Shown piece after piece: positions 33,610-59,809 of a stretch of DNA of 64,000 bases; positions within the stretch are counted from its first letter, which is position 1, and each line of letters opens with the position of its first letter. The notes under the pieces were generated by a model, which was not told where the DNA came from, ran no database searches, and worked only from the letters and a program-made list of their open reading frames with translations. The DNA is from Paraescarpia echinospica (lineage: Eukaryota; Annelida; Polychaeta; Sabellida; Siboglinidae), in NCBI GenBank assembly GCA_020002185.1, contig CM034533.1, positions 69,906,052-69,970,051 on the forward strand. Reading direction: 5' to 3'. Position numbers and translations under genes: made by a program.

Positions 33610-36600
33610 AACTGAGGTACTCTGTGTCGACAATCCTATTTGCGACGTAATCATTGGCAATGTGACAGGAGTTCACGCCAATATCCATGGAGAAATGGAG
33701 TCGTGCCCCGACCAGGTAGATCCAGGGAAAACTGTTGACGTGCCCTGTAACGTTGCTGAGGTGCAAGACACTAAACAGCTAGATCCTGAAGATGTTGTAG
33801 CAGGAGTGGTAGAAACTCGTAATCAGGCTATACAACGAAATAAGGATCGACTCCCCCTACGCGTGCCCGAGGTAGAGCATGTAAACATTTCAGCGGAAGC
33901 TTTCCGGATGGCACAGAAGAAGGACCCTACTTTGAAGGCATGTTTTGCCAAAGTCAGGCGTCCTCAGGATGAAGACACTCAATCGAGTCACTACTTAGTG
34001 AAAGGGGATTTGTTATACAGGCATTTTCAACGGCGAGAAGGACTGGAAGAGTGGAACCAGCTTGTGGTCCCCTCAGAATATCGCAAGCAAATTCTATGCT
34101 TGGGCCACGAAGCTATTTTGGCAGGTCACCTAGGTGTCAAAAGAACCAGTGACCGTATCCTGAGAAATTTCTTTTGGCCAGGAATTTTCGGTGACATAAC
34201 CAGGTACTGTCAGTCTTGTGACATATGTCAGATAACGTTTCATAAGGGTAAAGTAAAGGTCGCCCCGGTGGAACTTATGCCGTTAGTGGGGGTGCCCTTC
34301 GAGAAAGTAGCTATCGACCTGATAGGCCCCTTATCTCCCCACACGGATAAACACCATAGATGGGTGTTAACACTAGTTGACTGTGCCACCCGGTACCCAG
34401 AAGCAGTCCCCCTAATTTCGACTACGACCGAATCTGTAGCAGAGGCGCTATTGTCGATATTCGCCTGGGTAGGTTTCCCTCGCGAGATCCTAAATGATAA
34501 CGGACCGCAATTTGTGTCAGGTGTGATGAGAGAGATAGCCCGTCTGATGTCAATACAACAAGTGCACTCCACCCCGTATCACCCGATGGCTAACGGTCTT
34601 GTCGAGAGGTTCAATGGTACGCTCAAGAAGATGTTAGTTAGGATGTGTGCCGAGCGACCCCGAGATTGGGATCGGTACATTGAACCTCTGCTCTTCGCAT
34701 ATCGAGAAACTCCTCAGGGGAGTACCCGTTTCTCCCCGTTCGAACTGCTATACGGAAGAACAGTCAGGGGACCCATGGCAATCTTGAAAGAGTTATGGGA
34801 GGATGACCCCCCTGATAGTGAGACCAGGGTAACGTACCAGTACGTGTTAGAGTTAAGAAATCGTATCGAAGATACATGTAAAATGGCAAGGGACCACTTG
34901 TTTTCGTCCCAGGTACGATACAAGAAGCATTTTGACAAGAAGTCAAAAGAACGCACCCTTGAAGTAGGGCACCAAGTGTTAGTTCTGTTGCCGACTGACC
35001 ATAACAAGCTACTTATGCAGTGGAAGGGCCCCTACGAAATAGTTAAGAAGGTAGGGAACAACGATTATCAAATCCAAGTAGGAAACGCCCTGCGACTATT
35101 CCACGTGAACATGCTAAAGGAGTACGTGGCTAGGACTGAGTATGCCACAGCAATTACCGCCATCCTCAATCCTGAGGATGATCTCTCATTGGAGGTGCAA
35201 CCTTTACTTGAAGGACGAGTAGAGTGTGGCAAGGATGTTTCCCTAGCATCAGGACTTAGCAAGTTGCAAGTTGGTCAGATAGGGCAACTGACTGAGGAAT
35301 TTGATGAGGTATTTTCTGATAAGCCAGGGTGTACTAGTTTAGCCGAACATTCCATTAAACTAGACACCACTAAACCTATTCGGGTAAAGCAGTATCCAAT
35401 ACCTTATGCAAAAGTGCCCGAGGTAGTTGAGGAAGTGGATAAGATGCTTAAGCTTGGGGTGATCGAACACTCCGCATCACCCTATTGTTCCCCCCTTCTA
35501 CTGGTTCGAAAGAAAGATGAGACAAATCGTCGTGTAGTTGATTTCCGCAAATTAAACTGCGCAACTACTTTCGATGCGGAACCTATGCCTGACCCCGAGG
35601 CAATATTTGCTTCTCTCTCCAAAGACTGTATTTTCAGCAAGCTGGATTGTTCCAAACGCTATTGGCAAATAAACATAAACGCCAACGATAGGGAAAAAAC
35701 ACCATTTTCTACCCCCTCGGGCCTATTTCAGTTTCTGCGTATGCCTTTTGGATTAGTTAATGCAGGCGCAACATACAGTCGCATGATGAGGAAACTATTG
35801 TTGGGCATAAAGGGTGTAGACAACTATGTGGATGACATCGTGGTCCACACACAGACTGTACCCCGCCAGGTGTTCACTCGACTCAGAGAGGCAGGGGTCA
35901 CGGTTAAACCATCAAAGTGTTGTTTTGGGTACCCCAGGATAGATTTCGTGGGTCACCAAATAGGAGAAGGGCAACTCATGACACAGGAAGATAAGGTAGA
36001 GCGAATACGGGACGCTCCCGTCCCTCGAACAGTCACCCAAGTTCGTTCTTTTCTTGGGTTAACCGGATATTATCGTAAGTTCATTCCGAATTTCGCGACG
36101 GTAGCTACTCCTTTGACAAATCTTACAAAGAAAGGTCAGCCCACCCGAGTAATTTGGTCGGCCGATGCCGACCGTGCCTTCACAGAAATGAAAGCTATGA
36201 TGTGTAATGCCCCTATACTGAAGCTCCCCGATTTTGATCGCCCCTTTGTGCTTCGTACGGATGCATCCGATACCGGTGTAGGAGCTGTATTGCTCCAGGA
36301 GTATGAAGGAAAATATTTCCCGGTAGCATATGCAAGCAAGAAGTTGTCTGCGGCCCAGATGGCCTACGCTGTGATCGAGCGAGAGTGTCTCGCTATCGTA
36401 TGGGCTCTCGAGAAGTTCTCAAACTATTTGTACGGCCAGTTGTTTGTACTTCAAACGGATCATCAACCGTTAGCTTTCCTCCGTACGGCCCGATTATCAA
36501 ATCCCAGGTTAATTCGATGGGCTTTGAAACTTCAACCTTACAGGTTTCGGATAGAAGCTATTCCTGGAAAGGAGAATGTAGGAGCAGACTTTCTTAGCCG

Positions 36601-36622
36601 GCAGTATGTCAAGGAAATCTAA
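33596..36622 (+). CDS. pol: Pol polyprotein with order protease tail-integrase-RT-RNase H
   Basis: A 1,008-codon uninterrupted ORF. Its first 30 residues complete the protease (DVIIGNVTG flap end). Next is integrase: the HHCC zinc domain at about 170-210 (GHLGVKR ... CQSCDIC), the core with IDLIGPL near 240, LNDNGPQFV near 300 and GLVERFNG near 336, and a C-terminal region with VGHQVLVLLP. Only then comes reverse transcriptase (about 590-770), with VRKKDETNRRVVDFRKLN, a FGLVNAGATY and the catalytic YVDDIVV near 743. It ends with RNase H (LRTDASDTG near 885, ERECLAIVW near 928, LQTDHQPL near 953, ADFLSR near 1,000). Integrase upstream of RT is the copia-like order known from Gmr1-like gypsy elements. 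Catalytic motifs look intact. The ATG at 33,596 may not be a natural start; expression would be as a gag-pol fusion. Confidence 0.95.
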   Translation: MFTGETEVLCVDNPICDVIIGNVTGVHANIHGEMESCPDQVDPGKTVDVPCNVAEVQDTKQLDPEDVVAGVVETRNQAIQRNKDRLPLRVPEVEHVNISAEAFRMAQKKDPTLKACFAKVRRPQDEDTQSSHYLVKGDLLYRHFQRREGLEEWNQLVVPSEYRKQILCLGHEAILAGHLGVKRTSDRILRNFFWPGIFGDITRYCQSCDICQITFHKGKVKVAPVELMPLVGVPFEKVAIDLIGPLSPHTDKHHRWVLTLVDCATRYPEAVPLISTTTESVAEALLSIFAWVGFPREILNDNGPQFVSGVMREIARLMSIQQVHSTPYHPMANGLVERFNGTLKKMLVRMCAERPRDWDRYIEPLLFAYRETPQGSTRFSPFELLYGRTVRGPMAILKELWEDDPPDSETRVTYQYVLELRNRIEDTCKMARDHLFSSQVRYKKHFDKKSKERTLEVGHQVLVLLPTDHNKLLMQWKGPYEIVKKVGNNDYQIQVGNALRLFHVNMLKEYVARTEYATAITAILNPEDDLSLEVQPLLEGRVECGKDVSLASGLSKLQVGQIGQLTEEFDEVFSDKPGCTSLAEHSIKLDTTKPIRVKQYPIPYAKVPEVVEEVDKMLKLGVIEHSASPYCSPLLLVRKKDETNRRVVDFRKLNCATTFDAEPMPDPEAIFASLSKDCIFSKLDCSKRYWQININANDREKTPFSTPSGLFQFLRMPFGLVNAGATYSRMMRKLLLGIKGVDNYVDDIVVHTQTVPRQVFTRLREAGVTVKPSKCCFGYPRIDFVGHQIGEGQLMTQEDKVERIRDAPVPRTVTQVRSFLGLTGYYRKFIPNFATVATPLTNLTKKGQPTRVIWSADADRAFTEMKAMMCNAPILKLPDFDRPFVLRTDASDTGVGAVLLQEYEGKYFPVAYASKKLSAAQMAYAVIERECLAIVWALEKFSNYLYGQLFVLQTDHQPLAFLRTARLSNPRLIRWALKLQPYRFRIEAIPGKENVGADFLSRQYVKEI

Positions 36623-41700: not shown

Positions 41701-42920
41701 TTCAAGGAACGTTTCAGTATTTCTCAGGTGCGTGTATAGAGGTACAGACATTACTTCGGACGTTTATATTTTCCTTGAAAATTATTACTGGTGCCGAACT
41801 GTTAGAGTTTTCAATCTACATTCGTCTACGCTTGCCTTGAGAACCGATTGCAAACTTGTCAAGCAGAACGCTGTGGTCTATTCTTGGATAACACCGGACC
41901 ACGAACAACTTTTGTGCAACCGCCGATGATACGTAGTGACGCAAGACGCACTTCAGCATTCGAATGTGTCAACAATGACGTCAGTTGCGCGTTATTCTAG
42001 GACACTGTTGTTGTCAACTGCCGCCAATGCAACCAGATATACCAGATCTCCGGTGACCTGCTGTGTGAATCTTCTACTTCACCAACTATGCATTTTCAAG
42101 CGTTCGTCTACGAGACGTAAACACCGTAGCGGTCGTAAAGTCGCAAAACAGATCGGAACAATAATTCACTACGCAAGAGTACCGACGTTGCCACAACCAA
42201 GCCGAAGTGTACGAAATGTATTAACTTTACTATTATATATATATACAGCGCGATCAAGGCATACGAGTAAGCTACGTTAACGCACAATCGTTTCGGAACA
42301 AAACACTCGCCATTGCGGATCATATACTTGAAAACCATCTCTATATGATGGCGATATGCGAAACGTGGTTGAAGCCTTCGAGCGACGCCAGTGTGATTAC
42401 AGACATTGTACCAAATGGATATTCCATCAAGCACACGCCTCGCCCTACAGGCAAAGGGGGCGGTGTCACTATTATCCATAGATCCGAAATCGTCTTACAC
42501 AAACAGGATACCGATGCGTTTCGATCGTTTGAACACATCGAGTGCCGGCTGAAAACACCTGCGTCATCCACGAGAATCGTTGTTATTTACCGCCATCAGT
42601 GAAAAATGGCTTGTCAACAACTGTGTTTTTTGAAGAATGGGACCGTTTCATCGATCAGCATGCCGTACAACCTGGACCTCTGATTATCATGGGAGATTTG
42701 ATCTTTCATATTGACAACGCTGCAAATGTTGATGCACGGCGAATGATCAATTCTGTGAATGCCACACGAATGGTGTTGCATGTTCGCGGGCCAACCTACA
42801 GGAAAGGACATGGGCCTTTCTCACCACTTTGTGGTGTGTTTCAACATAGAAATTGTCCAACATCGCACTGGTTTGATGAAAATCAAATATCGCAAGTTAA
42901 TTCAGATGAAGTTGGAGGTA
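41701..42920 (+). mobile_element. 5' part of a LINE with AP-endonuclease domain
   Basis: From about 42,255 the plus strand reads VSYVNAQSFRNKT, then MMAICETWLKPSSDASVITD and GKGGGVTIIHRS at 42,345-42,480, then a SFEHIECRL. After a frameshift at about 42,600 comes LIIMGDLIFHID at 42,680-42,715 and a HVRGPTYRKGHG. This is the exonuclease-endonuclease-phosphatase fold of L2/CR1-type ORF2 proteins; aspartate/asparagine/histidine motifs are partly preserved (GDLIFH in place of the usual GDFNFH). The RT part is absent: the sequence is cut at about 42,920 by the inverted repeat of the next element. 41,701-42,254 may be its 5' leader. Confidence 0.75.
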
Positions 42921-43285
42921 ACCGTGCGCTAAAGGTCCCACAATTGTTTTTTTTATTTTGTATCTTCAGACTATGGAGAATCAGAATCAGAAGGGTGACA
43001 AGCTGTCACCCTTGGGCGTTTTACAGAAATGGCTGGTTTCTATGGCAACCCTATCTCACTTTTGGGCATAAATGAGAAACACAAATATATGCATTTATTA
43101 GCAAATATGACATATGTTATATTCACTAACGTGTCCAATTCTATGTTTTTCGATGTGGTGAATCCATTGGACATACTATATTGACAATCTATGGTCAAGG
43201 TCAGACGTAACTGTCAGGTTCAAACCAAAAATATGCTACACCAGTTTCATGAAATATTATGAAACGAAGCATAATATGCCACATA
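42921..43285. repeat. Left arm of ~360-bp inverted repeat flanking the PIN-like gene
   Basis: Reverse complement of 53,632-53,995. Shared landmarks are CTAAAGGTCCCACAA at the outer end, GGAGAATCAGAATC, GGGTGACAAG, TGGCTGGTTTCTATGGCAAC and GAAACGAAGC(A/G)TAATATGCC at the inner end. Identity is about 85% by eye. Confidence 0.8.
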
Positions 43286-43582
43286 GTTCGAAAACACAAA
43301 ACACACATACGCACGCACGCACTTACACGTTCGCACGTAGAAACACAGCAAAACTATATTAACATTATATTATAGCAAAACGAAAGTGGCAGGCTATCTC
43401 ACAACGCTATCTCACAACTTGGCATCAATGAGAAAAACGAATATACGCATTACCGACGAACACGAGCATCTAGATCATCTACAGTTGTTGAACGTACACT
43501 TGATGAATGTCAAAATGTCTTCTGGAGCGGGTGCCGCGTCGCTTTTTAGCATCACTGGTCGCAAAGTTGCGTTTACTGCATC
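43286..43582 (-). pseudogene. 3' end of the PIN-like gene, separated by the Polinton insertion
   Basis: Minus-strand codons from 43,582 downward continue the frame that is cut at 50,928. The shared GATGCA (target duplication) is followed by APAPEDILTFIKC and a cysteine series ending near 43,450 (RCSCSS), interrupted by one TGA. An AP..IL..IkC lead into a CxC cluster is what I recall at the C-terminus of this family. Further down (43,388-43,445) is a partial extra copy of the flanking repeat (CTATCTCACAACTTGG). Confidence 0.7.
43577..43582. other. Target site duplication (left), TGCATC
   Basis: Six bases immediately outside the left Polinton terminus. The identical hexamer lies at 50,928-50,933 outside the right terminus. 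A 6-bp duplication is characteristic of Polinton/Maverick integration. Confidence 0.9.
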
Positions 43583-43871
43583 AGTAGTAGATATGTTGCT
43601 CAGACTACCGTCCACTGCATCAAGATCAAAGGACATCAAAGGGTTTTAGGATCAGCCATGCCAAATGGATTCCTACTTATAAAAAAGAAATGATGGATGA
43701 CCTGTCATAAAAATCTACTTATAAAAAATCTCTTATCTTAATTGCTTGCTGACATCTTACTTATAAAAAAAAGTATTAACAAGTTTTGATTAATAGTTTT
43801 TTTTAACCCTTTTTATGATCACACCGGTTTCATGTAAGTGCAGTTCGTGTGTGCTGGCCTCTAGTGACTAG
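43583..43871. repeat. Polinton left terminal inverted repeat
   Basis: 289 bp, starting AGTAGTAGATATGTTGCTCA and ending GGCCTCTAGTGACTA; reverse complement of 50,633-50,927 with scattered substitutions. It is AT-rich in the middle, with repeated CTTATAAAAAA motifs. Confidence 0.95.
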
Positions 43872-43903
43872 ACGCTAAAACATAGTACACAGTAGCGCCT
43901 CTA

Positions 43904-44314
43904 GTGCAAGAATGGGTAGTCAGCAGGAAGAAGGTGCCCCCGCCGGTCGGCTGGGAAGCGTTCGGGGACCGTATGAGGCGGCTGAACGTCCCTATGGAGC
44001 TCGTCGGTAACCCCAGCGTCGAGCGTACATACAGCGCGCGCCGAAGCGAACGGCCAAACCCCGCAATCGCTCTCTTGAACGACCGTGGGTCGCCTATTAA
44101 AGAGGTTGAGAAACACCCGAGCCGCTCACAAGCTAGCATGTTCCCTCGCAGGTCGATAATCGTCGGCCTCGCCGTAGTCGCAGCGGTCTTCGCTACATAT
44201 ATCTGTGTAGTATGTTTTGTAAATCGATCGGACTCGCCGTCGCCATGGTATCCCGACGGCCTCATGTTACACAACGAAAGCGCCGCCCTCAACAACAACA
44301 ACGGGACCGCCTGA
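43904..44314 (+). CDS. Predicted single-pass membrane protein of the Polinton
   Basis: An open frame of about 113-136 codons directly inside the left repeat. The first in-frame ATG is at 43,973; the upstream opening codon is GTG, so the start is uncertain. It has a soluble, arginine-rich N-terminal part. One strong hydrophobic segment (IIVGLAVVAAVFATYICVVC, about residues 85-104 of the longest version) is followed by a short polar tail ending in a run of asparagines. I do not recognise a family. The position before integrase and the membrane segment suggest an element-encoded accessory or envelope-associated protein. Confidence 0.5.
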   Translation: MQEWVVSRKKVPPPVGWEAFGDRMRRLNVPMELVGNPSVERTYSARRSERPNPAIALLNDRGSPIKEVEKHPSRSQASMFPRRSIIVGLAVVAAVFATYICVVCFVNRSDSPSPWYPDGLMLHNESAALNNNNGTA

Positions 44315-44336
44315 AGCGCGCCTAATTATACCCGAA

Positions 44337-45470
44337 ATGGGCGGGCATTTACGGCGGCGTCGACGCGTTGCACCGGGCGACCGTAGTACCCAAGCCGGTC
44401 GTCAAGCAGTGGCTATCGACGCAGGACGCCTATACGCATCACAAGCCGGTCAAACGACGTTTCAAACGACGTTGCGTTATCGTAGGCGGTCGAAACCAGC
44501 AGTGGCAAGCCGATCTCGTCGACGTAGCTAAACTGAAAAAAGCACAACGACGGCATAGCGTTCCTATAGACGGTCATCGATGTCTTTTCGAAACGGGCGT
44601 GGTGCGTCCCGTTGAAGAGTAAAGCCGGTCCGGTCCTCGTTACGGCCTTCGAGAAACTGCTGTCGCAGCAGGAGCGACCGCCGAACGCGCTGCAGACCGA
44701 CAAGGGGACAGAGTTTCTCAACAGACCCTTTCAGAAACTTTTAACGGAACACGGCGTCCACCGTTTCGTGACGCACAACTAGGAGACCAAAGCGAGTGTC
44801 GTGGAGCGATTCAATCGGACGCTGAAGACCCGCGTGTGGAGGTACTTCACGAAGCATCAGACGCTGAGATACGTAAAGCCGTTGCTGAACTTCGTGCGGT
44901 CAAACAACAACGCCTACCATCGAAGCATCGGTAGGACGCCGGCGAGTGTCAACGCCGCGAATCAGGAGAGTGTGTGGCAGCGGCTGTACGGCTGTGGCGG
45001 GGGTCGAGGAAGCAAGCCGAAACTGCGACAGGGAGATCGCGTATGCATCAGCAAGGCGAAGTGTCTGTTCAAGAAAGGGTACATGGCTAACTGGAGCGAA
45101 GAGCTCTTCACTGTCGCCGAAACGCACCCGTCTGACCGTCCCGTCTACCGTTTGAGGGATGATGCCGGAACGCTACTAGACGGCACCAACGAGTAACCGT
45201 CCCGAAGGATAAACTGTATCAAGTGGAGGCCGTTCTGCAGCGTCGGCGACGTAATGGGGGCGGTGCGGAAGTGCTCGTGAAATGGGGGGGATTATCCGGC
45301 TTCCTTCAACAGCTCGATCGACGCCAAGGCGCTCGTGGACTATCAAAGTTAGGCGCGCCTCGGCGACGATGACCGACGAGGCGACAACCGACTGCCGCCG
45401 CCGTATCCGCCCTTGTCGATTCGACCGATGCTATCGACGACGACCGCGATACTCGGGGTGCATGCGATGC
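44337..45470 (+). pseudogene. Polinton integrase (retroviral-type, DDE), broken
   Basis: The sequence starts in one frame (44,368 to about 44,540), with the arginine-rich RRFKRRCVIVGG lead and QWQADLV, which carries the first catalytic aspartate. It then shifts to the next frame. There, VIDVFSK, LQTDKGTEF (second aspartate) and VVERFNRTL (catalytic glutamate) are visible, but TAG codons lie at 44,567-44,569 and 44,780-44,782. From 44,801 the frame is open for 131 codons through YHRSIGRTPASVN and a basic, SH3-like C-terminal part (GDRVCISK). Past a stop at 45,194-45,196 a frame-shifted chromodomain-like tail (VLVKWGG near 45,275) is visible. The enzyme would insert the element with a 6-bp stagger. 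All three catalytic residues are still recognisable, but this copy cannot encode one chain. Confidence 0.9.
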
Positions 45471-45483
45471 CCTAAAGCCTAGA

Positions 45484-45650
45484 TCATCTTCCTGTGTCAG
45501 ATACTCGTCCTGTACACGGTTATCGTAGTCAGTATATACAATTTGACGCGCGGCCAGGGCGACTCAAAACTGTGGACGGCGCTGCTGAGTAGCTGTCTCG
45601 GTTACCTACTACCGAGTCCGTCTATGAGACGCGATGGCATCGTCTGACAT
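45484..45650 (+). CDS. Small hydrophobic ORF between integrase and penton gene
   Basis: About 55 codons without an ATG at the expected place: an ATC follows a TAG at 45,481. A hydrophobic stretch (IIFLCQILVLYTVIVVSIYN) is followed by LWTALLSSCLGYLLP. The frame overlaps the start of the next gene (ATG at 45,634) by 17 bases, the kind of tight packing seen in Polinton structural clusters. Probably a small membrane protein whose start codon has mutated. Family assignment is uncertain. Confidence 0.45.
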
Positions 45651-46488
45651 TTACCTGACACTGCCGAGCAACGCTTCTATGAAGGCGCACCCCAAAAACA
45701 CGTTGGATCTCTACACCACGAATCTGAGGCATCGCTTCGATCTGTCGGGGCAGTGGGAATGCGGGCTGGTGGCGCTACAGTACCCGCATACCTGGTACAA
45801 CGTGAGAGAAGAGGACGCGTATTTCTTCTTGGCGTGCGGGTCGGGGGAGCAGGACGTTTACACCACCTCGGACTGTAGTAAAATTCTCCGGCAGAGCACC
45901 ATCCCTCATGGCTTTTACAACAGCTCCTACGAGTTGATGCACAAAATCAACGAGTCACTGAAGAGACTGAGCACCGATAAAGTCAAGGCGCGCCTGGAGT
46001 TCAGCCCCATCTCTAACCGGATGAAGCTGCGTCTATCGCCGGGCGTCGATTTTAACATACCCCCTCGGAGCCATCTGAAGAAAATACTACGGTTCGAGTC
46101 TAGCCGCATCTCGAGTCTTGCGCTGCCGACGTCCACCGACGTCGTCATCAGCACCATGCCCGCCGCGTAAACCTTCGAGTACAAGGGTGACTACACGGTG
46201 GATATGCAGCGGGGAGTCGACACCATGTACGTGTACACGGACATCGTGGAACTGCGCATCGTCGACGACGTTTTCGCCCCGCTCCTCCGAACCGTCCCCG
46301 TCTACGGTACGAACGGGCTCACTATATCGAATCTTTTCGACCGCGTCCAATACGTGCCTCTCCTTCGGCGCCAAATCGATTCGATCGAGATAGATATAAG
46401 AGACGACATCGGTCAACCGATACCATTCGAACAGGGGAAACTCGTGTCGACGCTTCACGTCAGACGCTGCAAATCCAAACTGTTTTGA
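45634..46488 (+). pseudogene. Penton-like minor capsid protein of the Polinton, one nonsense codon
   Basis: ATG at 45,634 opens 178 codons that end at TAA 46,168-46,170. The same frame continues for another 105 codons to 46,488, so the gene is whole apart from one stop. The N-terminal half has LYTTNLRHRFDLSGQWECGL. The second half has MYVYTDIVELRIVDD, then YVPLLRR, then IDIRDDIGQPIPFEQGK, the conserved end of the Polinton minor capsid (single jelly-roll, vertex) protein. It lies immediately upstream of the basic virion protein and the major capsid gene, as in other members. Role: pentameric vertex of the putative icosahedral particle. Confidence 0.8.
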
Positions 46489-46490
46489 CG

Positions 46491-47111
46491 ATGGCAGCGA
46501 GGGCCGGCCGCAACGTGTACGAGGATTATTACACTCAACAGGTCGGGGGTAACCTGCCGGTCTTCTTCGTCGGTAGAGTACAGCGGGGACACGGCTTGGG
46601 CAATCTCTTCGGGAGCCTGTTTCGGAACGCCATGCCGCTTATTAAGAGAGAGGTCTTGGCGCTGGGAAAACGCGCTCTCAACAAGGGCGTTCGCATGGCG
46701 CGGGACGTCTTCGCCGGCGAGAATTTGAAACAGTCGATAAAACAACGCGCGAAGGAGGCGGGCGCCGACCTTCTCGACGGGCTGTTGAAATCGCCGCCCC
46801 CGCCGCCGAAAAAGCGACGACGCGCTATAAAGCCGCCCCGCAAACTGTCTACGCCTAGTAAGAAGAAACGCCGTCGAAAGGAACAGATGTCGAGCGACAT
46901 ATTCCCCGCGTATAATGGCGTTCGTGCATCGACAGTCGTGCGACGGCCTGAAGAGCGAACTGGACCAGTTCAGCGTGCCTATGACGCAGACGAGCATCGA
47001 GAGCTGTCTGTGGATCGATCACCAGCCGCTGACGTCCCTCGACGCGGGCGGCCCTATCGAGTTCCTCGACCCGGGATCGGGAGACTACTATCTGGACCTG
47101 ACGAGCATTAG
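46491..47111 (+). CDS. Basic virion protein (adenovirus pVI/pX-like in layout)
   Basis: ATG at 46,491, three bases after the penton stop. Residues 1-45 include YEDYYTQQVGGNLPVFF and QRGHGLGNLFGSLFRNAMP, a glycine-rich, membrane-active-looking segment. A helical, basic middle follows (VLALGKRALNKGVRMARDVF), then proline runs and lysine/arginine clusters (PPKKRRR, KKKRRRK) resembling nuclear-localisation and DNA-binding tails. The conserved part ends near 46,905. The frame then runs on to 47,111, overlapping the capsid gene out of frame, which suggests the original stop was lost. Position between penton and major capsid genes matches the minor virion protein of Polintons and adintoviruses. Exact homology to pVI or pX is an inference. 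Confidence 0.7.
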   Translation: MAARAGRNVYEDYYTQQVGGNLPVFFVGRVQRGHGLGNLFGSLFRNAMPLIKREVLALGKRALNKGVRMARDVFAGENLKQSIKQRAKEAGADLLDGLLKSPPPPPKKRRRAIKPPRKLSTPSKKKRRRKEQMSSDIFPAYNGVRASTVVRRPEERTGPVQRAYDADEHRELSVDRSPAADVPRRGRPYRVPRPGIGRLLSGPDEH

Positions 47112-48210
47112 ACTGTACGCGCGCGTCAAAGTGTTGCAGGGGGATGGCACCGATCTCGCGAACGACACCGTCTTGGGCCCGGTCAACAATTACCTGCATT
47201 CGATGTTCAGTCAAGTCGACGTGTCGCTGAACGGCACGCTCGTGACGCCGTCGACCAATACGTATCCGTACCGGGCTTATATCGAAACCCTGCTGAGTTA
47301 CGGTTCCGACGCCAAACACTCGCAGCTCGGGGGCGGTCTGTGGTGTAAGGACACCGCCGGGTACATGGAGACGACCGCGAACGCTAACAACGGGTACGCG
47401 CATCGGCGCCTCTTCATACGGGACAGCCGCGAGTTGGACATGTTGGGACGCCTGCACGCAGACGTGATCTTGCAAGACCGGTACCTACTGAACGGCGTCG
47501 ACGTAAAAATCCGACTGGTGCGAAGCAAGGACGCCTTCGCGCTCATAGGAGCGGTCGCCGGGGTTCAAAATCGTCCTGCTGGAGACCTACCTGCAATTGC
47601 GAAAAGTCAAGGTGAACCCGTCCGTCCAGCTCGGTCACATCAAAGCGTTGACGAAGGGGACGGTCAAGTACCCGCTACGTCGAGTCGACTGTAAGGTGTT
47701 CTCGATACCGCAGGGCACGATGTCTCACACGCACGAGAACGTCTACTGGGCATGCTTCCGAAACGCGTGTTCATGTGCGTGATCGACAACGACGCCTATA
47801 ACTGGGCCTACGATAAAAACCCGTTCAACGCGAAGCACAACGACATAAACTTCCTCGCTCTGTACGTCGATGGACGCCAGGTGCCGAGCAAGCCGCTGTA
47901 GCAAAACTTCGGGCATTGACGCTACATCCGAAGCTACGTGAACCTTTTCGCGGCGACGGGGAAAGCGTACGAGGACGAGGGGAACGACCTGACGCGTACT
48001 GATTTCGTCGGCGGCTACACCATCTTCGGATTCGACCTGTCGCCCGACTGTTGCGACGGCGATCATTTCAACGTCGTGCGTAAGGGGAACCTGCGCGTGG
48101 AGGTCCACTTCGCGGTGGCGCTGCCCCGGACGGTGAACGTCGTCGTGTACGGGGAGTTCGAGACGGTGCTCGAGATCGACAAGAACCGGAACGTCGTGTA
48201 CGACTACTGA
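46915..48210 (+). pseudogene. Polinton major capsid protein (double jelly-roll), broken
   Basis: ATG at 46,915. The first 210 codons are intact and carry the stereotyped start of the family (SELDQFSVPMTQTSIESCLW, GGPIEFLDPGSGDYYLDL, GPVNNYLHSMFSQVDVSLNG, NTYPYRAYIETLLSYG). In animal databases these are often labelled F54H12.2-like. At about 47,560 the coding sense passes to another frame (VKVNPSVQLGHIKAL), and at about 47,745 it returns to the first. That frame then has TAG at 47,899 and TGA at 47,917 before a clean end at 48,210 (GYTIFGFDLSPDCC near 48,020-48,055). So there are two mutually compensating frameshifts and two nonsense codons. It would form the hexon-like shell. Confidence 0.9.
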
Positions 48211-48214
48211 ACCG

Positions 48215-48620
48215 ATGAACACGTTTCAGCTGATACGCCGCCTGACGATCTACGCGTACACTAAAAACGTCGACATCGGTGTCCTGCCTAAAGACGAGCT
48301 ACCGAAAAGACGGCTTACGGCTTACCCGTCGGCCTTCGTGCAACACCGACGACGGCGACGAGCCGGGGGAGCACTGGGTGACCGTCTACGTGGAAGCCGA
48401 CCGGCGAGGCGACTACTTCGATTCGTTCGGACTGCCACCGCTGCACGCCGACTTCCGCGCCTTCCTTTGCCGCAACTGCGACTCTTGGACGTACATCGGC
48501 TTTCCGTTAACTCCGTTCGTTTCCTTTCCCGTACACGGGCAGCCGTGGAAGAAGCACCCTTGGAACTGGTACGCCGTCCGCGTCTCTCAACACCAGCCGT
48601 CGACCCGGTACTTGCCGACG
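48215..48620 (+). pseudogene. Adenain-type cysteine protease of the Polinton, truncated
   Basis: ATG at 48,215 is followed by IYAYTKNVDIGVLPKDELP. After a frameshift near 48,330 the segment GEHWVTVYVE gives the catalytic histidine region, DYFDSFGLPP the acidic residue region, and FLCRNCDSWTY follows. These are hallmarks of the adenovirus-type (Ulp1-like) maturation protease. The C-terminal part with the Q...C catalytic pair is not recognisable beyond about 48,520. The gene runs into the truncated end of the oppositely oriented polymerase, so a deletion has removed both 3' ends. It would have cleaved capsid precursors. Confidence 0.75.
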
Positions 48621-49810
48621 CGCATCTCGCGCCCGTTGAGCTGGTGTCGTATGCGCAACCCCGTCCCACGTCAGCCACTGCACGGCCATGCGACCGTAGC
48701 GGTGCACGCGTTCCGGTCGAAAGGCGTTCTCCGCGCGGAGGCGCGTGTACCACCACGTCGGCATGTCTTGCGTGATGGCCAATAGGTAGAAGCCCACGAT
48801 CGAGCGGCAAGTCCGCGACGACTCGCCGTACTCGGCTCGGCGATGAACGGTTACATCGGCCTCGTGATCACGCGCGAAAATGATCGAGGGACCGCCGATG
48901 ATCTGCGATTGCAGAAGCCGGTGCAGGTACTTGTTCGGCTCGTTGAAGAGAGTGAAGTGAAGCGTCGGCGCAGATCGTTGAACAGGTAGAGTAGCGTTAG
49001 ACCCGGTACGCTGATGGCGCCCTTGAACATATCGATGCGGCGCTCCCGGTAGAAGGCGAACTGTTTGTCGACGGCCTCCAAGAACGGCACCACGTCCCTG
49101 TTGTTGTACCAGACGAGGAAGTCCCGCAGCGTCGTCATCCCTTCGTCGCGCCATACCTTCTCGCAGCCCTCGTACGCCGCGGCGGAGATTCCTTCGCGTT
49201 TTAGGTGGCTGTAGAAGGCCTCCCGTGGCGGTTGTTCGGTGTCGTCTAGTTTCCGCAGCTCGTCGAGATACTCGTAGGGAAAGTGTCCCTTCGTCACCTC
49301 GCAGCCGAAGGCCTTCAGAAACTTCTCGTAGCTGAAACCGGGGGCCAGGTAGTTAGTGATGTCCAGGAACTTGAGCGTCGCCGTTGATAGACACATCAAG
49401 TTGTTCTAACGCTTGATCGTAAAGGCCGACGATATGCTTTGCCCTTCGGTGGTCATGAACAGGGGAGTGAGATACTTCTTGACACGTGCAAGTCGTACCT
49501 ACCCGAAATTAAGCCGAGGACGGGGAGGCGGCGCAGATGCGTCCACAGGTGGTCGGCGAGTACGGTGTACGGGCTCTTGTCCGACTCCGTCTCTCGACAC
49601 CGGGCTCGCCATTCGTCGTCGAGCGCGGCGATCGCTTCGAAGATCGGGTCGTACGACGGTCGCAGAGCCGCGCATGCCGCTTCGCTCACGGCCTCCAGGG
49701 CGACGATCAGGCGCTTCGCGAGCTCATTCGAATCACCGGTCGTGATGAAGCGTCGCGCCGTCTCGTGGCCAGAGACGTTCGAGGCCATACCCACGCTGAG
49801 AAGCTCGTGT
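48620..49810 (-). pseudogene. Protein-primed DNA polymerase B of the Polinton, N-terminal/exonuclease part only
   Basis: Minus strand, three broken frames. At 49,794-49,453 is a helical lead ending WTHLRRLPVLG, with SGRYDLHV (first exonuclease aspartate region). At 49,399-48,970 are LKFLDITNYLAPGFSYEKFL, a LVWYNNRDVVPFLEAV and IDMFKGAISVPGLTLLYLF. At about 48,965-48,640, after a frameshift, come GGPSIIFARDHEADVT and QDMPTWWYTR, which belong to the TPR1/early palm region. The DTDS-containing catalytic palm and the thumb are absent: the sequence stops where the protease remnant begins. Polintons replicate with this enzyme, so this copy could only have been mobilised by enzymes supplied elsewhere, unless the deletion came after insertion. 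Confidence 0.85.
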
Positions 49811-49881
49811 CAGGCTATCCACCGGCATTTGCCGTTGTCCGCCGGCAAGGCACTACGGGGGCTATAAAACTTTTAGTGTAG

Positions 49882-50075
49882 TAAGTAACCATATACTAAT
49901 TAAAATATATATATATATAATATAACTTACCGTCTCCTTTCATATGTTCATAATACATGCCTCGTCTCTATAATCCAACTATTCGTACACGACCGATAAA
50001 GCCAACTTCAGCTTAATAATACAGCACCCTTATTTGTCTTACTCCTAGCTAGGTTTCAGTATGAATAATAAAGTA
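49882..50075. other. Non-coding AT-rich spacer in the Polinton
   Basis: Contains a TATATATATAAT run near 49,905-49,922. It probably includes the promoter region of the minus-strand polymerase. No ORF. Confidence 0.4.
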
Positions 50076-50375
50076 GCGTTCTTCGGCTAGCGTCGGTATT
50101 TTTAGCTCTTATGCATTCTCCGGCTAGCGTCGGTTATCGTTACGCCTCATGGCAAAAGATCACCGACCCCACCAGGCGCAGCCGCAAGTAAGCCGCGCTA
50201 GGCTTAACTAGGGCACTACCGCTGTAGAGATCGTAGGTCAGCATTCTCCGGCTAGCGTCGGCTCTTATCGTTACGCCTCGCGGCAAAAGATCACCGACCC
50301 CAGCAGGCGCAGCCGCCTACAGCTTGCGCTAGGCTTAACTAGGGCACTGCCGCTGTAGAGAACGTAGGTCACCGA
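50076..50375. repeat. 128-bp tandem repeat inside the Polinton
   Basis: Two and a third copies. GCATTCTCCGGCTAGCGTCGG starts at 50,113 and 50,241, with a partial copy at about 50,078. Each unit contains AAAAGATCACCGACCCCA and GGCTTAACTAGGGCACT. It lies between the polymerase gene and the right terminal repeat, a position suited to replication or regulatory function. Confidence 0.85.
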
Positions 50376-50522
50376 CACCAGCAGCCGTTGTATTACGAGC
50401 TTGCACAGGAACGTAAAATGCAAAATTCAAATAGTCTTCACTAGAGACGCTACTGTATACACTGTTTACTTCTATATAACCACGAGTTTTCATAACCACA
50501 CACATAACCTCACATATAACCA

Positions 50523-50640
50523 TAGCTTCACTAATTAGCACTAATTAGTCACTAATTAACACTAATTAGTCAATAATTAGCACTAATTAGCAATAATTAG
50601 TCACTAATTAGCAATAATTAGTGACTAATTAGTAGTCACT
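50523..50640. repeat. ACTAATTAG micro-repeat next to the right terminal repeat
   Basis: About twelve short units of (TC)ACTAATTAG / CAATAATTAG ending where the right terminal inverted repeat begins (50,633). It contains overlapping palindromic TAATTA sites. Confidence 0.85.
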
Positions 50641-50927
50641 AGAGGCCAGCACACACACGAACTGCTCTTACATGAACCCGCTGTGATCATAAAAAAGGGT
50701 TCAAAAAACCTATTAATCAACACTTTTTTTTATACTTTTTTATAAGTAAGATGTCAGCAAGCAATTACGATAAGAGATTAGATTTTTTATAAGTAGATTT
50801 TTACGACAGGTCATCCATCATTTCTTTTTATAAATAGGAATCCATTTGGCATGACTGATCCAAAAACCCTTTGATGTCCTTTGATCTTTATGCAGTGGAC
50901 CGTAGTCTGAGCAACCTATCTACTACT
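50633..50927. repeat. Polinton right terminal inverted repeat
   Basis: 295 bp, reverse complement of the left repeat, ending CAACCTATCTACTACT at 50,927, followed directly by the target duplication TGCATC. Confidence 0.95.
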
Positions 50928-50933
50928 TGCATC
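50928..50933. other. Target site duplication (right), TGCATC
   Basis: Identical to 43,577-43,582. On the minus strand it supplies the codons GAT GCA of the interrupted gene on both sides, so the frame is preserved across the insertion. Confidence 0.9.
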
Positions 50934-53640
50934 TGCCGTCCATCCATATTGGAGAGGATCTACGTCAAATGGAATAGCCTGGGTAGCATGTTTCCAGATG
51001 CAGGTTTGCAAGTGAGCTCTCATCACAGTTAGTCGAAAGGCCTCATTGGTGGGAGGCAGATACATCAGCTTTGGAGCCGAGACAATATTTGCCCTTGCAG
51101 TTTTTAATTTCCACATCTTGTAGCGCACATCGGTCATAGTTGTGGCTGCAGCAAATCCATAGCAAGCAACTATGAATGTTGTAGATTGTTTGACTACATC
51201 TGCAATTTGATATGTAGGCTCGCACAGTTCCGAAAGTTGATAGCCTGATTGAAGGACTTTCACTGGTTTAGCCTTTCCAATGCCACAGCTAGTACTGAGC
51301 CACAGTGTCACAGCCTGACAAGGCGTGAGCTGCTGGTAGTTGTCCAGCGATGTTCTGTGCATGTACGCACTTGCTTGAATGTCATTGCATATCCTCTCTG
51401 TGGATATGGCTTCCATCGTTACAGGGCAGTTGAAGTTTCCGTATTGGTAAAAGTGGATTAACAGTACGAACACGTCAATATCATCCGAAATGACATTGAT
51501 ATTACAGTTTATAGCATCAGCTTCCACAATGAACATCATCTGGTGGATGATGATCACATCAGCCTCTTCCTGGGTGTTTCACGTGTTTTCCCAGTCAATC
51601 AGTACGCTGTTGTTTTTACAGGGACCGGATCACTTCCTGTTACCACAAGTTTGTGGCGCGTCGGTTTTAACTGTTTTCCCTGTTCCCGTAGAGTCTCAAC
51701 GATCAGATCGATCAGTTGTACTTTGTTATAAGTCACAGTTAACACAACATTCTATGATGGGGCTAGCATCGAGCGTGAGAGTTGGTGGTGTCTGCTTGCT
51801 TCTTTCACTCTTGCTGTACGGGTGACACCTTTGATACTGTAGTCGACGTATCTGTCAAACATAAAATACACACCAGAGTCTTTCATCTTTCTTGCAACAT
51901 ATGCAACAAAGTTGTCAATAGATTGTTGCACTGTATCTTGTGTTGGCCAATGAACTACCCACGATATGGCTGATCCATCGATTATTACACTGGTAGCTTT
52001 GGGTGCAGTTCTTGCCGGCACGTCAACGTTTAGCTTGTTCTTTAGTGTTGACTAGTTTGTTGCTAATCTGATATCACCAGCGTTGGTGAACATTGGAGTA
52101 GGCATCGGGGCCAACTCGTACTTCAGAGCTTTCTCAATGTCCATGTCTCTGCCAGAAGTATGCAGACCAATGATGCGCGAATAAATCAAATTGGTGTCGT
52201 ATATCTTTGTAGAGCCTACTCTGATGTGTCGTTTCATGGTTGCCATGGTATGCACTTGTTTGGGAAGAGTATAGTGGAACCCGAGAGGCCAACTGCTTTC
52301 ATATTGGTTCAACATCTGCTGACCTATTCACACAGCTTCATGTACATTCACCCCAGGTTCTGTAGCTATTCTGCCACTCACAATGTGAATGATGTTATAA
52401 TTTGGGTGAGTGGGCGGACCAAGTGGATCAATCGACATTTCTTGCCGTAGGTCATGTCAGAAATGTCTTTGTACAGGACACTGTAAGTGTGAAGACTGGA
52501 GTCCCACGTCTTCATGGTGTTTGGTTTCAGCATAACACCAATTATACCAGTGGGTCCATTTCCATACCACATGAAAGATGTTTTGATCATCGAGTGTGCC
52601 GGGTAACATGATCTCCATTCATGAACATTACGAAGAGGTATGTCGGCATCGCCGCAATTGAGCGCAGATAATAAAGGCCATAGTACGCATAATTTGGGTG
52701 ACGAGCAGCAAAAAGTAGGATATCATTATACTCCACAGCAAGCAAATGAAGTGCCCAGTCTGCTTCCTTCTCAGCTCAACAAAACAGCATCATTAGTAGA
52801 ACAGGTTTGATCAACATATCTACCCAGAGTTTCGTGGTTCTGCTTTGGCTAGCTCTGTTTTCTAGCTCATACATTAAGATATTTGGCTCGTCAACTTGCT
52901 GCACCATGCTACGAAGAAGTCCCTCAATCACCATCCTCAGTGCTCGGAAGTTCTGTGGAAACCGCTTGCCTGTCAGCATGTGGGCAACCCCTCCAAATGC
53001 ACATTCCATGACATCAGACAGCCCAGTGTCTGCCATCAGGGCTCCGATACATCCAATCAAGTTCATTATGAAGTGCATGCCCCCAAGTGTAGAATGAAAT
53101 TCTTGAACCGTTCTGGGTATGCCCATGTAATGTTCACTGCCACTTTGAAAAGTAGCTGGTCACAGGTGAACACTTGGCTTTATCACGAAACACAAGTATA
53201 CTTGCAATGCCTGTTGCTTTAAAAATGAGGAGATCATCTGCAAAATGCACAGACACTGCACTCGGTAGTGCTCTTCTGGACATGACGGTGCCTCCAAATA
53301 TTTGATAAAGTTTGTATATATTTCTGATGTATTTCTTATGGGCGATCGATGCGCACCTATATCAGAAATGAGTTTGTCAAATGCTGCGTCTTTCGAATCT
53401 TTTCCAAGAATTTCAGTACGACTTGAAGCAAGCTGTACCGATTTGGGTGCCATAAATTTGGTGTTGCAGTCATAGTGGTATCTCGCATCAGCTGCATGCA
53501 GATCACTGAGAGCTCCTCTTACTCTCACTGATACTTCACTAGCCCACTGATCTCCACGCGCTTGACAAGTCTCCAGAACAGCTGTCTTGAATGACTTCTG
53601 ATGGACTCGGTCAGCAATTGTACGAACTCTGGCATATTAC
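50928..53640 (-). pseudogene. PIN/FEN-like gene of a multicopy animal family, decayed and split by the Polinton
   Basis: Read on the minus strand, frame-broken blocks follow one another in family order. They are DLHAADARYHYDC near 53,500; LMADTGLSDVMECAF near 53,030; TSFMWYGNG near 52,570; RDMDIEKALKYELAPMPTPMF near 52,150-52,090; SVIIDGSAISWVVHWP near 51,990; VYFMFDRYVDYSIKG near 51,870; then a 213-codon block with FIVEADAINCN and VISDDIDVFVLLIHFY (51,550-51,465), a degenerate GCDT-type LTPCQAVTLWL, and YGWTADA at the insertion point. The EAD...SDDxDVxVLL arrangement with an upstream DG resembles the acidic residues of PIN/FEN nucleases. I recall the family as abundant in invertebrate genomes but know no assigned function. 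At least six frameshifts or stops are present. The N-terminus is missing: the inverted repeat abuts the first block. Confidence 0.7.
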
Positions 53641-53995
53641 GCTTCGTTTCATAATATTTTATGAAACTTGTGTATATTTTAGGTTTGACCTTGACATTTA
53701 CGTATGACCTTGACCTTAGATCATCAATATAACGTGTCCAGTGGATTCACCACGTCAAAAACATAGAAATGGACACATTAATGAATATAGCATCTGTCAT
53801 AGTTACTAATATATGCATATATTCGTGTTTCTCATTTATGCCCAAAAATGAGATAGGGTTGCCATAGAAACCAGCCAATTCTTACAAAACGCCCAAGGGT
53901 GACAACTTGTCACCCTCCGGATTCTGATTCTCCATTGTCTTAAGATACAAAATCATGAACAACCCATTGTGGGACCTTTAGTGCAAGGTTGGACC
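53632..53995. repeat. Right arm of ~360-bp inverted repeat flanking the PIN-like gene
   Basis: Reverse complement of 42,921-43,285. The inner end (GGCATATTACGCTTCGTTTC) directly abuts the truncated 5' end of the gene. The outer end shows TTGTGGGACCTTTAGTGCAAGGTT. Beyond it the two flanks are unrelated: LINE on the left, unknown on the right. Confidence 0.8.
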
Positions 53996-54390
53996 AAACA
54001 TCCCACTTTGGCTGCCAGACTAAGTTACGCACCATAGATGCACTGTCTTTTCGACAAAACCCGCATGCACCACGCACCACGCACCACGCACCACGCACCA
54101 CGCACCACGCACCACGCACGCACGGGTCATTTTGAGAAACATCTGGAAGGCAAAACAAATAAAGCTTAACTCCAAACTGAGGATATATAACTCAAATCTC
54201 AAGTCAGTAATACCTTATGGCTCGGAGACACGGTGAATTACACATAAAAAACCTAAAAAAGACTTTCATCAACAAAAGCCTGCGCATAACCCTACATCTA
54301 AAGAGGTAAGACAAGATGCCCAATACTACACTATGGGGATGGACCAAACAACTACAGAAGACGAAATAAAGAAGATGACATTAATGGAGC
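53996..54390. other. Intergenic DNA with a 7-bp GCACCAC repeat
   Basis: A (CACCACG)n tract at about 54,069-54,122 and otherwise unremarkable sequence. No gene. Confidence 0.5.
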
Positions 54391-54481
54391 ACAATAGCGC
54401 AGCGATAAGAGCTCCGGACCCTCGAGTGAGAGAACGCGGGTTCGAATTCTGTGCGGAGGTGTCGAAACTTGGGCAAGTTCG

Positions 54482-54565
<84 letters not shown>
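54385..54565 (+). mobile_element. tRNA-derived SINE with (AC)n tail
   Basis: Internal RNA polymerase III promoter elements are visible: an A-box-like TAGCGCAGCGATAAGAG at 54,395-54,411 and a perfect-looking B box GGTTCGAATTC at 54,439-54,449, spaced as in tRNA genes. The flanks do not pair as a full acceptor stem, so it is not a functional tRNA. An (AC)n microsatellite from about 54,485 to 54,565 forms the tail. Confidence 0.7.
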
Positions 54566-54569
54566 GCCA

Positions 54570-55690
54570 TCGTACATGTTCGTATCTTGCGGTGCCAGTG
54601 TGGAGAATTCAGGCCTGTTAAAATATTGAACTGATGCTACGATGTTATGAATATACAAAATATCACAATATTTAATGCATCAATCATCAATAAACTTTGA
54701 TATTTTATTAAGTAACTGTGCTTTCATCCTTAACAATTTACAGGACAGGAAACACAATATTTGATGGCGCTCACAAATGTATTTGTAATTGTATGTAATA
54801 GCATAATAAAACGAAAAAAACATGTTTGGAAAGGAGTAAATATGAAGTTGTAAACTTGTTCGTGGGCATATAATCCGTTCGTGTTTTACGCCGGTTGACA
54901 TGTACGACCCACAAAGAATCTGTAACACTACAAGTATAATATATTATGTAACCCTGACGGGATTGTTTCGTGCAAGCGGTTGCATAGGCTATTGTTATGT
55001 CAGTCGTCAGACGGGGGTAGGGTAGCTTGAGCCACACCCAGTCGCAGTTTGCTAGGGATCATGGACGTGTCCACAAAGATATACGTACAGTTCTCTCGGC
55101 TCCGTATTACGAGTATCCATATACACGGCCTGGTGAGTTATGTTTTCATGTTTATATGTTATATACAATAGTGATACTATTAGAATAATGCATAACTTGT
55201 TGCCTCATTACCCGTCAGTTCGGGCATGCCAGCTATAGTATAACGAGTGTAGAAGCGTTCTGTCGCAAAATGTTAAATTGTGTTTACAAACGACTTACAT
55301 ATGCAAGCATTTGAACTAATTATTGTGATGTATATGTATGTTGTGTGCATACGTTTGACTTTAGATAATGTGATAATTACTAGTCAAAAGAAGAACTTAG
55401 GTAAAACAAGTTTCTCCGACTCTTGTCTGTACAAACTTGTCTGTACAAGTTTAGACAAGTATCTATAGGGTGACTGATTATTACATGCGGTTTACCACGT
55501 CTAATATTAGAACAGCCGACACAACTTAGTAATGTAGCGTTGGTTGCTTGACTACACTGTTGCGATGTTGTAGTCACAACTAGCACGCTGTCTCTCTGTC
55601 TCCCTGCTCCTATATCTGTCTCTATAATCTACATCTTTTTTCTCCCCGTCTACCCTTCTCCAACCCTCCCACTCTACCCGAATCTCTCTC
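54570..55690. other. Intergenic DNA; one weak first-exon candidate
   Basis: Mostly AT-rich sequence without domains. An ATG at 55,061 opens 24 codons that end in a good donor (GCCTG|GTGAGTTATG at about 55,131/55,132), which could be a first coding exon, but nothing supports it beyond that. Confidence 0.3.
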
Positions 55691-56545
55691 CCTCCTCCAT
55701 CCTCTGTGTTTGTCTGTTAGAATGTCAGTCTATAAGTCGGCTAGGCTGTACGTCAGTACGCATGTCTGTTTGTCTGCTTGCCCGCCTACCTGTCTGGCTG
55801 CCTGCCGGCCGGCCTCCTTCTCTACCTGTATCTTTCTCTTACTGTTTGCCTCTATGTCTTTTTGTTTGTCTGCCTGTCTTGTCTGTCTGTCTGCCTACCT
55901 GTCTGTCTGTATGTATGTCTGCTGCTTGTCTGCTGGTTGTATGTTTATCTGCCTATCTCTGCCCCAGTCTTTGCCCTTGACTTTGTCTCTACCTCTCTGA
56001 ATTTCTTCTCTTTCCTGTCTGCATATCTACCTGGATGTATATCTGTCTGTCTGCTGCTTGTCTGCTGGCTGTATGTTTATGTGCCTATCTCTGCCTCAGT
56101 CTTTGCCCCTGTCTGTCTCTCTTTTCACTCCAGTCTGCCCATCTACCTGCATGTATATCTGTCTGTCTGTTTGTTTGTCCGTCATTCTGCAGGCTGTATG
56201 TTTATCTGCCAAATTCTGCCTCAGTCTCTGCCTCTCTGTATCTCGTGTCTCTCTCCTGTCTGCCTGCATGCCAGCCAACCTGCCTGCACACCTGTATGTT
56301 TGCCTTCTTATATCTGCCTCTGCCTCTGCCTCTGCCTCATCCTCTGCCTCTGCCTCTGCCCCTGCCCCTGCCCCTGCCCCTGCCCCTGCCCCTGCCCCTG
56401 CCCCTGCCCCTGCCCCTGCCCCTGCCCCTGCCCCTGCCCCTGCCCCTGCCCCTGCCCCTGCCCCTGCCCCTGCCCCTGCCTCTGTCTGTCTCTGTCTCTG
56501 CCTCTGCCTCTGTCTCTGTCTCCCTCTCGTTCCCCCCCCCTCTCT
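55690..56545. repeat. CTGTCTGCC-type and CCCTGC microsatellites
   Basis: Pyrimidine-rich, CTGT/CTGC-based low-complexity DNA. A 300-bp imperfect direct repeat within it (CTGCTTGTCTGCTGG... near 55,920 and 56,052) precedes a pure (CCCTGC)n block at about 56,348-56,480. Hexanucleotide periodicity keeps several frames open for over 200 codons, but the peptides are repeats. Confidence 0.9.
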
Positions 56546-58100
56546 CTGTCGCATTTCCTGGTAATCGGGTACGGTCATGGATCTTTGCACATTTGACACG
56601 AATGGCGAGGCTATTCCTAAATACATGCCAACTGTGCTTTGCACAAACAATGTCATGGTTGATTACCTCAGAGACAATGCATTGATTCAACTACCTGTGA
56701 ACATTCTGTGCATCGCGTGCAAGCCAAACCATGGTAGCTTCTTAATCACACGTGTGACTGAGATGCATAAAACGACCAATAGGAATACAGTTGATGAAAT
56801 ATAGGTGACACGACAGGTTTCAGTACAACACCGACTTAACAGGTGAATGGTTGACTGGCCTGGGTGCTGTTCACATTTTATGTACGAAACAAACAATATT
56901 CGCTTGACGCTCGATATGGTGCTTCGTGTAATAGGTGATTTCAACTGTGCAACAGACCATTGGACATGAAAACAAATGCCGGAAAAGACACAACGTGAAG
57001 GGGTAGCCATTGCAAGATGGCTGCAACACCGCCAAACGAAGAAAGGTAGGGACTTTGGATATTTAGAACAGCAAGTAGTTGTAGTCTGTTCTATATATTG
57101 CCTTTGGGTACAACAAGAACATTCGTTATTGTTGATTTGTCTATTCATGGCGGCAGGAACGCGCAAGAAAAGAACATGGTTATTGTCTTTAAACGTTAAT
57201 TTAGTATCGTATCGTAATGTAGACACATATATAGACAGACATGTACGTACGCACTGGAGTGATGTGTTCTTAGGCCACCTTGCCAATCACAATGCAAATA
57301 CACACACGGACACAATATCAATGCACATGTTGAAACATTTATAATGCAACGCACCATGGCGGAGTAAACATAAATTCTGACATCATCTCTCCTCGGTTCA
57401 ATTCACCATTAATACCGCACTGTGTATTGTATATGAACCGTTGTTGGTATAATACATAGACAATAAATATGATTTGACTTTTGGAAGTTTCCCACTGTGT
57501 GCGGCCATATTGGATACGCCCCCTATCGTCGTCAACCCAAACTGTCCATGAACTTGCATACATCAGAATACATATAATAGATTACTAATATTATTTATGC
57601 CGCATATACCTACGTTTACTGCATCATTTCATGGAACACAACATATGAGCAAAGTTTAATACCATTCTAACGAATAAATACCTTCAATAGGTGTAGATAT
57701 GCAAGATTAATTAAAGTTGAAGTTCACACCACATATTTCGCCTGACTGTGTTTGGCAGGGTATAAAAGCAGGTAAATTTTATATGTTAATTGCAGCTTGA
57801 CGTGCTCAATATATAGGGTTATATCACGTGGCATGGATGACCACACCGGTTATGGGAACGCCGGGATGGCTTAGGACCCGATTTAACCCTCCCTTGCAGA
57901 GTGCTACCACAGTATGGGTCAACTGTGAGAGATCAGGATTGTGACACTACTCTCCAGAGTAGGGTTGTTAGGAGCTCCCGAATGATGTCCCGAGCCGATC
58001 ATTGGTGCAGTTAGCTCTATATCATAGGCAGTAACGACTCAAGTGTCTCCCACTTCCTGATTCTCACTTTTTGTCTTGCAAAAATGAAATTCAATGTTGC
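56546..58100. other. Intergenic DNA, no gene recognised
   Basis: The longest frame is 199 codons on the minus strand (57,286-56,687), rich in Cys, Ser and Thr without a pattern I recognise. A 75-codon plus ORF at 56,577-56,804 is likewise unassigned. Either could be chance, and neither has clear splice or promoter context. Confidence 0.4.

Positions 58101-59762: not shown

Positions 59763-59809
<47 letters not shown>

Follow-up and report, generated by a model that had tools for sequence, protein, structure and literature searches.

The window analysed here is a 64,000-nt stretch of DNA located at C3:69906052-69970051 of a 1.08-Gb animal genome. Between positions 43583 and 50927, this stretch contains a 7,345-bp element with the appearance of a Polinton (Maverick) that interrupts a coding frame. 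A preliminary description had attributed this arrangement to a transposition event rather than to an artefact of assembly, and the question that the locus raises is which of the two it is, and what was hit. We are highly confident that the insert is a degraded Polinton lying between two copies of the hexamer TGCATC within the open reading frame (ORF) of a DNA transposon that exists in many copies; its own retrovirus-type integrase is the likely agent of the insertion.

Element ends and the interrupted reading frame

The junctions of the element with the surrounding DNA, and the two parts of the interrupted ORF, are the following:

43478-43576, minus strand: 3′ part of the interrupted ORF (VNATLRPVML...NNCR), with its stop at 43475-43477; from translation
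43577-43582: left target duplication of the Polinton, TGCATC; read directly
43583-43870, plus strand: left terminal inverted repeat (TIR) of the Polinton, 288 bp; from TIR alignment
50633-50927, minus strand: right TIR of the Polinton, 295 bp; from TIR alignment
50928-50933: right target duplication of the Polinton, TGCATC; read directly
50928-51578, minus strand: upstream part of the interrupted ORF (...QYGWTADA); from translation

The hexamer TGCATC abuts both outer ends of the element, exactly as the preliminary description had it. The element reads AGTAGTAG...CTACTACT, and both of its ends start with AGTAGTAG, which contains the AGT end motif of Polintons and Mavericks. The inverted repeats that had been proposed are present at these ends, although they measure 288 and 295 bp and not 290 bp; they are long, as expected for a Polinton, and the 6-bp target site duplication (TSD) is likewise of the type known from these elements. 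The probability that six bases match by chance at fixed positions on both ends is 1 in 4,096. Alignment of the left and right TIRs gives 269 identical columns out of 298, with 13 gap columns and 16 substitutions (Kimura two-parameter distance of 0.058). This modest identity means either that the insertion is old, or that the two ends were already different on arrival.

A minus-strand frame, open from 51578, reads ...QYGWTADA down to 50928, and its final two codons are GAT GCA, so the hexamer does belong to a coding frame, as had been claimed. From 43576 downwards, the minus strand encodes VNATLRPVMLKSDAAPAPEDILTFIKCTFNNCR and then reaches a stop at 43477-43475; the frame past the insertion site reads VNATLRPVMLKSDAAPAPEDILTFIKC... 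The earlier statement that the frame resumes with a cysteine cluster holds for the frame, but a part of the cluster (SRCSCSS) lies beyond the in-frame stop, and the window copy of the interrupted gene is therefore itself broken.

Uninterrupted copies of the target

As the target is a repeat, the genome supplies its own controls. Searched genome-wide, the interrupted ORF gives at least 156 matches (150 scored of 1,159 candidates), one copy possibly yielding several of them. The 30 best places were considered as loci: three carry a Polinton junction (the window's own and two others, A and B), and the remaining 27 were compared with the window. In 19 of these 27, the insertion site is crossed without a gap both at the protein and at the DNA level, and GATGCA is kept in 15. 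In an alignment with the locus L027, P0001 and P0002, which are proteins of other origin, cross the same place free of gaps as well. The left flank was also searched and gives at least 50 matches (40 scored of 110 candidates), which amount to 38 places once the window and 11 matches that were second pieces or stopped short of the site are excluded. When compared with 49 gene matches, 24 of the 38 places have a gene match at 12 bp or less, five have one at 34-102 bp, and nine have none nearby. The search for joined flanks that had been proposed was hence productive, and homologous genes do join the two flanks; the empty site is demonstrated in paralogous copies, not in an allele.

Seven copies of the interrupted gene (L031-L034, L038, L043 and L045) share a clean in-frame deletion of 60 bp that begins at the Polinton insertion site. 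An excision scar was considered as its origin and rejected, the deletion being clean and in frame.

The copies also reveal the nature of the target, an outer element with the following features:

42895-42897: AGT, left 3-bp duplication of the outer transposon
42898-54022, minus strand: outer multicopy DNA transposon with ends TAATTCAG.../...CAGACTA; both ends and TSD found, and the same 3′ boundary in 22 of 27 copies
42920-43290: left inverted repeat region of the outer transposon, partner of 53623-53990
53623-53990: right inverted repeat region of the outer transposon, partner of 42920-43290
54023-54025: AGT, right 3-bp duplication of the outer transposon

The outer transposon spans 11,125 bp when the Polinton and one copy of the hexamer are included, and about 3.8 kb without them. 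The sharp 3′ boundary common to the 22 gene copies lies near 42897, and the sequence beyond it differs between copies. Three of the four copies for which both end flanks were found have perfect 3-bp TSDs (AGT, ATT and GTT), and the fourth agrees in two of the three bases; in four further copies checked, either the second end or the flank of that end could not be located. Since it occurs in many copies that have boundaries in common, inverted ends and 3-bp duplications, the interrupted gene is identified as the ORF of a DNA transposon; the Polinton thus sits as one transposon within another. On the same grounds, an ordinary host gene was rejected as the target. What had been described as a gene is indeed an interrupted coding frame, but one that belongs to a multicopy transposon; as it is one of many copies, loss of a single-copy host gene through the insertion is unlikely.

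For the ORF of the outer transposon, Pfam gave no match at the cut-off and a PDB sequence search none that was meaningful, and neither of them found a nuclease domain. The nuclease domain of AcademX transposons is of the XPG type, and the SDDTD and GCDTV...GIGK stretches of the ORF have a look that we take to be FEN-like. A literature search combining Academ with XPG found nothing.

Gene content and surroundings of the Polinton

Between its TIRs, the insert contains the following pieces:

44326-45193, plus strand: integrase (rve type) pieces, frame broken; 58.5% identity over 135 amino acids (aa) to a place within an ORF of locus L015 (Pfam rve, 3.5e-13)
45628-46485, plus strand: likely minor capsid protein, two stop-separated stretches; from gene order, and 46-66% over 29-101 aa in the same order in L015
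46491-47111, plus strand: basic protein, likely a PW homologue; 58.9% over 90 aa in L015, name from gene order
46915-47691, plus strand: major capsid protein, N-terminal piece, frame lost before its end; 67% identity over 76% of the query to the protein P0008
47920-48207, plus strand: major capsid protein, C-terminal piece; similar to the end of the A1 consensus line
48246-48782, plus strand: likely remnant of an adenovirus-type protease; from position, and 50-52% over about 50 aa beside the capsid matches in A and B; no Pfam match
48851-49809, minus strand: likely remnants of a family B DNA polymerase; from gene order, with a DNA_pol_B_2 match below the cut-off (E 0.13, 48851-49405)
50113-50371, plus strand: two copies of a 131-bp tandem repeat; from repeat scan
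50528-50633, plus strand: CACTAATTAG-type short tandem array adjoining the right TIR; from repeat scan

The frames of the integrase, the capsid and the likely minor capsid protein are broken. On their own, the integrase pieces of the window have no Pfam match, and they are recognised through the rve-bearing place in L015. At E ≤ 1e-3, 2,121 homologues of the capsid piece were found, 120 of them listed. One close relative, P0008, is predicted to fold as a double jelly-roll: its model, with a predicted local distance difference test score (pLDDT) of 77.3, is matched by the double jelly-roll capsids of PBCV-1, an iridovirus, Sputnik and mavirus. No packaging ATPase was matched in Pfam among the nine pieces of the element in a general scan, no dedicated search being made. 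Scans of PHROGs, Rfam and IMG/VR, as well as PDB sequence searches with the interrupted gene and the capsid, gave nothing useful. The names of the minor capsid and PW pieces were assigned from the gene order given in PMC8097293. According to the same source, intact vertebrate elements measure 12.7-24.6 kb; at 7,345 bp, the insert is a short, degraded Polinton that is filed as a shortened relic and not as an intact member.

The genome also contains shorter units of 1,717, 1,982 and 4,225 bp that have the same ends and are flanked by perfect duplications. It might thus be supposed that the insert moved at its present size of 7.3 kb as a small non-autonomous unit mobilised by relatives, instead of being the remains of a full-length copy. 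The many decayed pieces of structural genes that it still holds speak against this, and we consider such an origin unlikely, albeit worth keeping in mind.

ORFs of two loci (L015:1590-2790 and L014:4378-5001) show a NADAR match (E 1.9e-19), a second NADAR match (1.3e-6, below the cut-off) and a SERTA-like match (E 1.1e-4, below the cut-off). These ORFs share a stretch with Polinton capsid and integrase matches, the strong NADAR match being about 2.7 kb from the capsid match, and they are possible accessory genes of Polintons. Literature searches on Polinton with NADAR, and on tubeworm with Maverick, found nothing.

The surroundings of the right junction recur in the assembly, and two features are of relevance:

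49934-60500: segment recurring inverted at C3:69810746-69821296, in two blocks of 99.3% and 99.8% identity
C3:69821298-69827037: 5,740-bp unit with arms of 2,045 bp that are 99.4% identical, its start at most two bases from the breakpoint of the duplicated segment

In all, this chromosome carries the right junction three times, the two extra copies being located within 160 kb, at C3:69798444 and C3:69820305. In the former, the TIR is 95% identical and the flank 93.9-98.3%; one of the two is inverted, with TIR and near flank 100% identical, and each copy runs on into different sequence. Beside either extra right junction, the left flank was not found in the 136 kb searched, except for short repeats of 35-67 bp. 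The 38 left-flank places all lie more than 100 kb from any listed Polinton end, so there is no second left junction among them.

These copies have to be considered with regard to two explanations. In the first, the element would be a chimera, whose ends come from different Polinton copies joined by recombination or gene conversion; the matching flanks would then mark one old insertion with an interior exchanged later. A and B do share the right junction and then continue into other sequence, including a different Polinton lineage, and the identity between the two TIRs of the window element is only 92.6%. Against this, both own TIRs have CACTGCAT in common where four other elements differ, and both group with A and B; the left junction lacks a second copy among the 38 left-flank places; and B ends at most two bases from where the separate 5.7-kb inverted-repeat unit starts. 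Taken together, a chimeric origin appears rather improbable. In the second explanation, the insertion or its neighbourhood would result from a mis-join of repeats or haplotypes during assembly. A near-identical inverted copy about 130 kb away could raise that suspicion, and so could the Polinton ends at C1, C85/C512 and C13/C2666, which also recur with the same flank. A mis-join, however, is not expected to produce exact TIRs together with a 6-bp duplication and a continuous frame at a single site, nor the perfect duplications seen at 12 other facing pairs of ends (two of which are copies of one another). With flanks joined without a gap in 19 of 27 loci and 24 of 38 left-flank places adjoining the gene, transposition is supported as originally argued. 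An assembly artefact as the source of the insertion is very improbable.

A transposition could have proceeded as follows. A longer parent Polinton would have inserted by staggered strand transfer at GATGCA, and gap repair would have produced the 6-bp duplication. Internal deletion and mutation would later have reduced the parent to the 7.3-kb relic, and a subsequent segmental duplication may have generated the two extra right junctions on this chromosome.

Several observations weigh against the nested insertion as we read it. At eight of the 27 loci, the site is not crossed cleanly (seven with the 60-bp deletion starting there, and L035, which is divergent), 14 of the 38 left-flank places have no gene match within 12 bp, and two of 18 facing pairs of Polinton ends agree in two or fewer of the six flank bases. 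The identity of the TIRs is modest (269 of 298 columns). With its right junction present three times the locus is not a simple one, and an assembly error in the surroundings is possible. The polymerase label is based on a Pfam match below the cut-off (DNA_pol_B_2, E 0.13). The double jelly-roll prediction concerns P0008, a 67% relative, and not the broken capsid of the window; a first capsid model, built with 16 close sequences, was poor (pLDDT of 56). These points notwithstanding, the finding is real and had been correctly read; as a nested insertion it is ordinary, the element being of a known kind. For this insertion of a Polinton in an animal genome, the record obtained from sequence alone is complete, comprising its ends, the duplication and numerous empty copies of the target.

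Two other features of the window were recorded. Positions 32557-36622 contain two adjacent ORFs of a long terminal repeat-type retrotransposon, gag-like and with integrase, reverse transcriptase and RNase H; in the second ORF, the integrase domain is upstream of the reverse transcriptase. A minus-strand ORF of 733 aa at 1752-3953 includes five PKD-domain stretches.

Probable target choice and comparison with known elements

When the ends of the family are pooled, a target preference of a virus-like element can be measured from what began as a single insertion. A pattern for the Polinton ends found 70 ends genome-wide, and none when reversed. Six ends were added, five from an earlier end listing (one re-read three bases further in) plus the right end of the window. 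For each plus end, the minus end within 30 kb that matched best was taken as its partner, which resulted in 18 facing pairs, five of them resting on added ends. The six flank bases match completely in 13 pairs, in five positions in three, and in two or fewer in two.

The idea that the target hexamers have a pyrimidine-purine (YR) step at their centre was written down after the first flanks had been seen and before the next were printed; the CG step was noticed only on the first 26 ends. A YR centre is present in 11 of the 11 hexamers that suggested the idea and in 9 of the 15 next ends (P 0.0065). Outside the suggesting set, 21 of 35 hexamers have a YR centre (background 0.266, binomial P 3e-5) and 12 of 35 a CG centre (background 0.040, P 6e-9). 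For the 24 hexamers that became available after the first 26 ends, YR occurs in 15 (P 2e-4) and CG in seven (P 3e-5). The background was computed from 156,087 dinucleotides of the window and of neighbouring loci, and independence of the hexamers is assumed in the P values. Of 12 distinct perfect duplications, 11 have YR and six have CG; leaving aside the five that belong to the suggesting set, the figures are 6/7 and 4/7. The target of the window insertion, GATGCA, has TG at its centre.

Retroviral integrases show a preference for the central step of their targets, which provides a parallel. We think it probable that animal Polintons choose their targets, with an integrase that would cut six bases apart around a flexible YR step, CG above all, and that the window insertion is one of many such events. 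The fall from 11/11 in the suggesting set to 9/15 in the first test tells against such a preference, as do the 14 of 35 hexamers without a YR centre and the share of the suggesting set (five of 12) in the distinct perfect duplications. Moreover, not every single-end hexamer is a proven duplication, and a few mates that have diverged were counted as two. A limited literature search, covering parts of the sources, found no description of a Polinton target preference. While the insertion itself is ordinary, this preference is the addition worth following.

With respect to known systems, the outer element would fit AcademX, for which TSDs of 3 or 4 bp are given in PMC10045372; it shares the 3-bp duplication, and differs in that neither Pfam nor the PDB sequence search matched a nuclease domain, leaving the superfamily unproven.

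For vertebrate Mavericks, PMC8097293 reports (AGT)2 ends, TIRs of 46-1,447 bp, a 6-bp TSD and the order integrase, minor capsid, PW, major capsid and protease, with the polymerase on the opposite strand. The window element likewise has the (AGT)2 motif, TIRs within that range, the 6-bp TSD and the same gene order, with minor capsid, PW, protease and polymerase as likely assignments; it differs in its length of 7.3 kb, its broken frames and a probably invertebrate host, and ATPase and PZ were not seen among the window pieces examined.

The mavirus-like elements (EMALEs), as far as the consulted part of PMC8547959 describes them, have in common with the window Polinton an rve integrase, insertions in coding sequence and kinship of the double jelly-roll capsid (mavirus). 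Their TSDs are mostly 3-5 bp and no sequence-specific integration is reported there, in contrast to the 6-bp TSD and the central YR/CG bias of the window Polinton family; if it holds in other genomes, this bias would be a difference between the two groups of elements.

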